From assembly GCA_937922675.1 (NCBI GenBank), contig CALAJN010000004.1, positions 62,001 through 126,000 of the forward strand: DNA of 64,000 bases, in the 5' to 3' direction. The position numbers and the translations under genes were made by a program. The DNA is from an uncultured Granulosicoccaceae bacterium. Lineage in GTDB: Bacteria; Pseudomonadota; Gammaproteobacteria; Granulosicoccales; Granulosicoccaceae. Below are positions 1 to 733 of this stretch, in pieces (the stretch's first letter is position 1; every line of letters begins with the position of its first letter). A model generated the notes under the pieces. It saw only the letters and a program-made list of their open reading frames with translations. It did not search any database and was not told the DNA's origin.

Positions 1-216
1 GTCCGCTGCGAGTCTCGTGTGGGAGCGCGCTACACGGCCGAGACCGGCTTTTTCCACGCGGACTGCTCGCCCGTCAAGGCAACAGGGCAGGTTGAGTGGC
101 GCGTTATTGGTCGTGAATACGAAGCGCTCGACGAGGGCGGCTTCTGGTTGCTGCGATCGCGCAATGCCGAAGGAGAAGAAACCTGGCTTGTATTACCTTG
201 GCACGACTGGGTCTGA
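1..216 (+). CDS. hypothetical protein, C-terminal part (5' end outside window)
   Basis: An open frame enters from the left edge and ends with a stop at 216, giving about 71 C-terminal residues. It could also start at the in-window GTG at 19. The end is rich in Trp and acidic residues and closes with PWHDWV. I do not recognise a family. It lies 10 bp upstream of the glutaredoxin-Rof gene on the same strand, so the two may share a transcript. The true start and any N-terminal domain are not visible. Confidence 0.5.
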   Translation, partial: VRCESRVGARYTAETGFFHADCSPVKATGQVEWRVIGREYEALDEGGFWLLRSRNAEGEETWLVLPWHDWV

Positions 217-226
217 TTGACGGTCA

Positions 227-733
227 ATGACTACTCTAGACGCACACGCATCTAACCGACAGGTCGAGATCTACACACGGTTTCTCTGCCCGTTCTGCAT
301 CCGAGCTAGGCGATTGCTCAAGGCGCGCGGTATCGCCTATCAAGAGATCAATATAAGCCTTGATAGTGAAGCTGATGCCCGTATGGTCGAACTGAGCGGT
401 CGTACCTCTGTTCCGCAAATATTTGTCGGTACGCACCATGTCGGCGGATGCGACGATCTGATAGCAGCGGATGCGTCGGGTGAACTTGCGCAACTTGTCA
501 AGCCGTATGAGCCGGAGGCTTACGAGCCTATCGCCTGCTCGACCTATGACGAACTGGAACTCGCCTGCGTGCGGCGGATCAATATCTCGGTGGCGACGGA
601 CGACGGAGTGCTCACAGGAATCGCGCACACCTTGCGTACTCATAACCGTGCCGAAGTGCTGGTACTTGATGAGGGCGGGGAGGGTATGCGCGTTGTAAGG
701 CTCGATCAAATCCGTAATTGGCAGATCATGTGA
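227..733 (+). CDS. glutaredoxin fused to a Rof (Rho-inhibitor)-like domain
   Basis: The 168-aa protein has two parts. Residues about 10-92 are a dithiol glutaredoxin: active site CPFC at 21-24, the cis-Pro loop TSVPQIF at 60-66, and the GGCDDL glutathione-binding turn at 73-78. Residues about 98-168 read like Rof/YaeO, the small protein that binds Rho and blocks Rho-dependent termination. YEPIACSTYDELELAC (99-114) matches the E. coli Rof pattern Y-x-P-I-x-C-x-x-Y-D-x-L-E-L-A-C, and VVRLDQI near the end matches its RELRLDKI strand. The frame is uninterrupted, so this looks like a true fusion. Glutaredoxin activity is a family expectation; redox control of Rho is only inference. The gene sits just upstream of tmm, with 102 bp between them. 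Confidence 0.85.
   Translation: MTTLDAHASNRQVEIYTRFLCPFCIRARRLLKARGIAYQEINISLDSEADARMVELSGRTSVPQIFVGTHHVGGCDDLIAADASGELAQLVKPYEPEAYEPIACSTYDELELACVRRINISVATDDGVLTGIAHTLRTHNRAEVLVLDEGGEGMRVVRLDQIRNWQIM

Follow-up and report, generated by a model that had tools for sequence, protein, structure and literature searches.

A dithiol glutaredoxin (Grx) and a homologue of the Rho inhibitor Rof are joined here in one protein. Its open reading frame lies at 227..733 on the + strand of the window, the 64,000-nucleotide stretch of DNA that we analyzed, and runs in a single frame from an ATG start to a TGA stop (168 aa). The first-pass annotation had read this frame as such a fusion and had considered it undescribed. 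Both domains score over their Pfam cut-offs, and the literature searched contained no description of a Grx-Rof protein. The grx-rof gene has a new domain architecture made from two known families, and its function is one that we infer. We imagine, tentatively and at somewhat less than even likelihood, that the Grx domain acts on Cys104, a cysteine in the Rof half, by maintaining or sensing its thiol state, and so gates Rho inhibition by Rof. Redox control of termination, as originally suggested for this gene, is plausible.

The Grx half (residues 13-92; 263..502, + strand) is of the GrxC/Grx3 type, as indicated by Pfam, GRX_bact, and comparison of a model with 3grx. It matches Pfam Glutaredoxin (PF00462) over residues 13-72 with 70.2 bits (cut-off 22.9; E 1.7e-19) and passes the NCBIfam equivalog GRX_bact (TIGR02181, glutaredoxin 3) over residues 13-90 with 100.8 bits, the cut-off being 90. 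In an alignment of 37 rows, the fusion plus 36 relatives, Cys21 and Cys24 of the CPFC active site (287..298, +) are invariant, as are Pro63 of TSVP (residues 60-63; 404..415, +), which we take to be the cis-proline motif of the Grx fold, and G73, G74, and D76 of the glutathione-binding loop GGCDD (residues 73-77; 443..457, +). With every invariant Grx residue present, this half looks intact, at least as judged from sequence. An AlphaFold model built from the Grx alignment has a pLDDT of at least 96 over residues 11-90 and superimposes on E. coli Grx3 (3grx) with TM 0.93 on the target and an rmsd of 1.0. The host genome carries a separate canonical grxC, flanked by rhodanese and secB genes, plus a Grx4-type gene, and thus the Grx of the fusion is not the housekeeping copy.

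The Rof domain (residues 99-168; 521..730, +) consists of an N-terminal helix and an Sm-like barrel, as supported by Pfam, a PDB match, and a model. Residues 101-164 match Pfam ROF (PF07073) with 44.9 bits (E 1.3e-11) against a gathering score of 27.6, so that the doubt initially raised, that a profile search might give no ROF match, falls away. The score for PRK11625, Rho-binding antiterminator (NF008636 equivalog), is 41 bits, under the cut-off of 117, and from these scores we would call this half a Rof homologue that is not assignable as an equivalog of E. coli Rof. Searched alone against PDB sequences, the C-terminal part finds E. coli Rof (8w8d/1sg5/8ptm, E ~1e-7) and also Vibrio cholerae YaeO (6jie). 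The Grx and Rof domains were modeled separately, each from its own alignment; a mixed Grx+Rof alignment misplaced Rof rows on the Grx part and was left unused. In the AlphaFold model from the Rof alignment, residues 100-168 have pLDDT values of 92-98 and form a helix (104-115) and, after it, the Sm-like barrel. This model matches Rho-bound Rof 8w8d_d with Z 10.2 (71 residues, 1.7 A), V. cholerae YaeO 6jie_A with Z 10.3 (62 residues, 1.4 A), and many Hfq chains, which share the fold, with Z ~9. One can envision from the Sm/Hfq-like fold, and from differences in the beta3-beta4 loop and the tail, that the domain has been repurposed to bind, for example, RNA or another protein and acts with Grx away from Rho. 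However, the residues that have been retained are the Rho-contact ones, and we consider such repurposing very unlikely.

Cryo-EM has shown that Rof I8, C10, Y13, D14, E17, and E50 contact Rho (PMC11018626, PMC11018607), and all six residues are retained in the fusion, as I102, C104, Y107, D108, E111, and E143, respectively. In E. coli Rof, Y13A and D14A abolish Rho binding, C10 contacts Rho Q85, and C10S halves toxicity (PMC11018626). The essential Tyr13-Asp14 pair aligns with Tyr107-Asp108 (545..550, +). C10, E17, and E50 are invariant across 114 Rof sequences; their counterparts are Cys104 (536..538, +; Cys in 114/114), Glu111 (557..559, +; 114/114), and Glu143, which lies in the beta3-beta4 loop region (641..655, +). 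That loop has His139-Asn140-Arg141 for Rof R46-K47-N48, and the Rof positions N9, D11, and D12 are also altered. On the other side of the interface, the host Rho retains S82, S84, Q85, R87, R88, F89, K105, K115, and R128, and carries the substitutions E19 to Gln, E125 to Gln, K100 to Arg, and L114 to Val.

A second cysteine, Cys114 (566..568, +), corresponds to Rof Cys20 and is Cys in 96/114 Rofs. Cys104 and Cys114 had been pointed out by the first-pass annotation as residues that could be glutathionylated or paired with the CPFC site; the comparison shows them to be the ancestral Rof C10 and C20. Because the thiol of Cys104 is invariant and lies at the Rho interface, redox control becomes a more interesting idea, and one that is not peculiar to this fusion. 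Separately, we rejected a Cys104-Cys114 disulfide in the folded state; with both residues on one predicted helix (104-115) and about 10 residues apart, their pairing in the folded protein would be unlikely.

Is the join genuine? The Grx domain ends at about residue 92 and Rof starts at about residues 97-99, with no intergenic remnant between them. The short linker PYEPEA (residues 93-98; 503..520, +) holds no in-frame start codon, and pLDDT is low at residues 90-94. In fact, in-frame ATG, GTG, and TTG are absent all the way from Met53, inside the Grx core, to Val115, past the Rho-binding helix. This leaves no start codon for separate translation of the Rof half, so that one frameshift is not enough to account for the join; more than one indel would be required to split the frame into two working genes. 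This argues against the frameshift alternative that had accompanied the original reading of the gene. An assembly or sequencing artifact merging neighboring grx and rof genes would suit a fusion known from a single genome, but it would have to account for the missing Rof start codon and for a junction that holds no intergenic remnant, and in none of the relatives do grx and rof genes of such a kind lie side by side. We therefore regard an artifact as extremely improbable.

Listing the genomes that share the fusion had been proposed at the outset, and in the sets searched it is confined to its host genome. ROF was found in 22 of the 48 family genomes searched and was fused to Grx in the host only (0/47 relatives). 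The ROF search sets, which overlap, comprised 48 genomes for the family and order, 369 for the class, and 398 for the phylum; further overlapping sets comprised 24 genomes of the order of G264 and 148 and 391 genomes of the family and order, respectively, of G459, a genome whose family appears to be Pseudomonas-type. No second Grx-Rof fusion was found across these searches of the family, order, class, phylum, G264, and G459 groups. Long frames over rof were also scanned, most of them with few exceptions (e.g., in G855, G892, and G930), and none of those scanned had an in-frame Grx; most long rof-spanning frames arose from chance read-through and contained the start of rof itself. Among plasmid and phage records, no match reached 80% coverage of the fusion. 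With no second case in these wider searches, the fusion is rare and probably recent.

That leaves the question of whether a fusion of this kind does anything to Rho. The main rival to our proposal is a recent neutral or near-neutral event, which would have left the protein with one function, that of a second GrxC-type glutaredoxin, the N-terminal domain blocking Rof so that Rho is no longer inhibited. Occurrence in one genome is in keeping with this, as is the long branch of the fusion (1.11) in a Rof-domain tree built from too few columns. The fusion also ends about 10 residues short of the E. coli Rof tail and so has lost it, and early ends are found in many PF07073 members as well (profile 1-67 matches). 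In E. coli, this C-terminal tail contacts Rho K100/K115, the Rof N-terminus occupies a cavity in Rho, and an N-terminal His tag abolishes Rof activity (PMC11018626). The fusion has no free Rof N-terminus, Grx directly preceding Rof, and by analogy with the tag, the Grx domain probably either gates Rof, in a reversible way, or inactivates it. Furthermore, about half of the family genomes are without Rof, and its loss must be tolerated. Nevertheless, C10, Y13, D14, E17, and E50 and the Sm fold have been kept, with no disabling stop or indel, and we find neutrality somewhat unlikely.

In the thiol-controlled Rho inhibitor that we favor, the C-terminal Rof domain, if active within the fusion, would behave like E. 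coli Rof and bind Rho on its RNA-binding face. The contact thiol of Cys104, presumably open to modification, would lose its function through glutathionylation or formation of another mixed disulfide, and the fused Grx would strip this modification in cis, keeping or restoring the reduced thiol. Alternatively, a change of state at the CPFC site may cause Grx to move away from the Rof N-terminus. The outcome, with the switch running in the direction that we envision, would be Rho inhibition that tracks the glutathione/thiol state.

The observations from which this proposal starts are the fusion, both predicted folds, and the conserved residues in Rof and host Rho. Retention of the invariant Grx residues together with Rof C10, Y13, D14, E17, and E50 and the host Rho surface would be expected of such a switch, as would models that match Grx3 and Rho-bound Rof. 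The fusion is the only ROF in the 3.63-Mb, 100% complete host genome, and it may be telling that this sole Rof sits behind a non-housekeeping Grx. The contact of Cys10 with Rho, the halved toxicity of C10S, and the presence of Cys in 114/114 Rofs would all fit a thiol switch at this position. Of five termination-factor genes in E. coli, rof alone is induced by thiol-reactive mercurials (PMC5769350), an induction that may likewise point to thiol control; nothing directly linking Rho and redox was found in the literature searched. Against thiol control, Grx may simply block binding, as the His tag could suggest, the absent tail and the altered R46-K47-N48 contacts might weaken the interaction with Rho, and the fusion is confined to one genome, with 0/47 relatives sharing it.

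The joint conservation of the Rho-binding residues and the catalytic Grx site could also be explained by targeting, with Rof as an address label that docks Grx on Rho for thiol repair on Rho or the transcription complex and with Rho inhibition secondary. However, no thiol substrate is evident on Rho, free Grx at its cellular concentration would normally be enough, and a thiol-repair role does not suit the cupin and DUF2470 fusions described below. We think targeting quite unlikely.

Thiol control of Rof, our preferred reading, may draw some support from other genomes. Cupin-Rof proteins of 196-241 aa are conserved in 3 genomes of 2 genera (L200:1470-2195, L201:1327-1917, and L202:1958-2572); in L202, Pfam Cupin_2 is over its cut-off with 31.6 bits and ROF is under, with 26.0 against 27.6. 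Here Rof has been joined independently to a domain of small-molecule type. A relative from the same genus, G011, has an in-frame DUF2470-Rof (L124:1153-1761) with both Pfam domains over cut-off. Rof is C-terminal in all of these proteins, and the existence of three kinds of N-terminal domain on natural Rofs is a mild argument that such an arrangement can be kept. Elsewhere, a Rof at L128:1309-1734 (- strand) has a Ser/Thr/Pro-rich insertion of about 40 residues within the barrel.

In the Pseudomonas-type family (148 genomes), a CPVC thioredoxin-fold gene of 74-77 aa is present in 37 genomes and, in 34 of these, precedes rof on the same strand at a distance of 22-1038 bp (for example, at L188:1038-1262 on the - strand, at L185:1245-1469, and in L203, L207, L209, and others). 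The two genes occur together: rof is in 35/37 genomes with the CPVC gene and in 17/111 without it (Fisher p ~1e-18, with genomes counted as independent). This position upstream of rof would agree with thiol control; against that, the gene represents a different thioredoxin-fold family, its Pfam matches to Thioredoxin_3/4 and Glutaredoxin being weak. A divergent MarR-type regulator lies beside the CPVC-rof pair in L185 and L188, and a DUF2024 gene lies between the CPVC gene and rof in L174. In another genome (G719), a 76-aa glutaredoxin-like gene (KCPHCK; L163:1258-1488; Pfam Glutaredoxin, 43.4 bits) is tail to tail with rof (1489-1737). No report of cupin-Rof, DUF2470-Rof, or the CPVC-rof pairing was found in the literature searched.

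Cupin-Rof, DUF2470-Rof, and the CPVC gene upstream of rof suggest that a redox or small-molecule link to Rof is more general. In its broadest form, Rof Cys10 would be a general thiol switch on Rho inhibition, with redox partners in cis (Grx-Rof) or in trans (the CPVC gene), and N-terminal Grx, cupin, or DUF2470 domains would gate Rof; so wide a claim we regard as rather unlikely.

A predicted lipoprotein gene (119 aa, no Pfam match) starts before the window, with its C-terminal part at 1..216 (+), and stops 10 bp short of the fusion, so that the two genes are likely cotranscribed and could be operon partners. Downstream, at 836-2182 of the window, is a flavin monooxygenase (Pfam FMO-like), presumably resembling trimethylamine monooxygenase. 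Genes further upstream (L149:1820-8820) resemble, as we read them, sarcosine oxidase subunits, formate dehydrogenase, and a GlxA-type regulator, and the neighborhood is perhaps a methylated-amine region.

When cells need Rof and how Rof is controlled are stated open questions (PMC11018626). The fusion, together with a redox gene beside rof elsewhere, names a testable signal, the glutathione/thiol state on Rof Cys10, and if true, redox state would be connected directly to transcription termination on a global scale. Gating by N-terminal domains, if it holds, would define a class of signal-controlled Rho inhibitors. What makes the fusion interesting is that it allows one to ask by experiment whether Cys10 of Rof acts as a redox switch on Rho.

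Compared with known systems, the fusion has in common with Rof/YaeO (PF07073, E. coli) the Rof fold and contacts I8, C10, Y13, D14, E17, and E50; it differs from E. coli Rof in having Grx in front with a linker of about 6 residues, no C-terminal tail, and altered beta3-beta4 contacts, and its identity to the aligned Rofs is 22-39%. With GrxC and E. coli Grx3 it shares CPxC, TSVP, GGCDD, and the fold, and it adds a C-terminal Rof domain. The cupin-Rof proteins (L200, L201, and L202) likewise have Rof C-terminal behind a small N-terminal domain, but that domain is a cupin and not a redox enzyme. In the hybrid Prx5-glutaredoxin of Haemophilus influenzae (HI0572, 1nm3), as here, Grx is covalently linked to a protein with a thiol that it can serve in cis; there, however, the partner is a peroxiredoxin and Grx is C-terminal, whereas here the partner is a Rho inhibitor and Grx is N-terminal.
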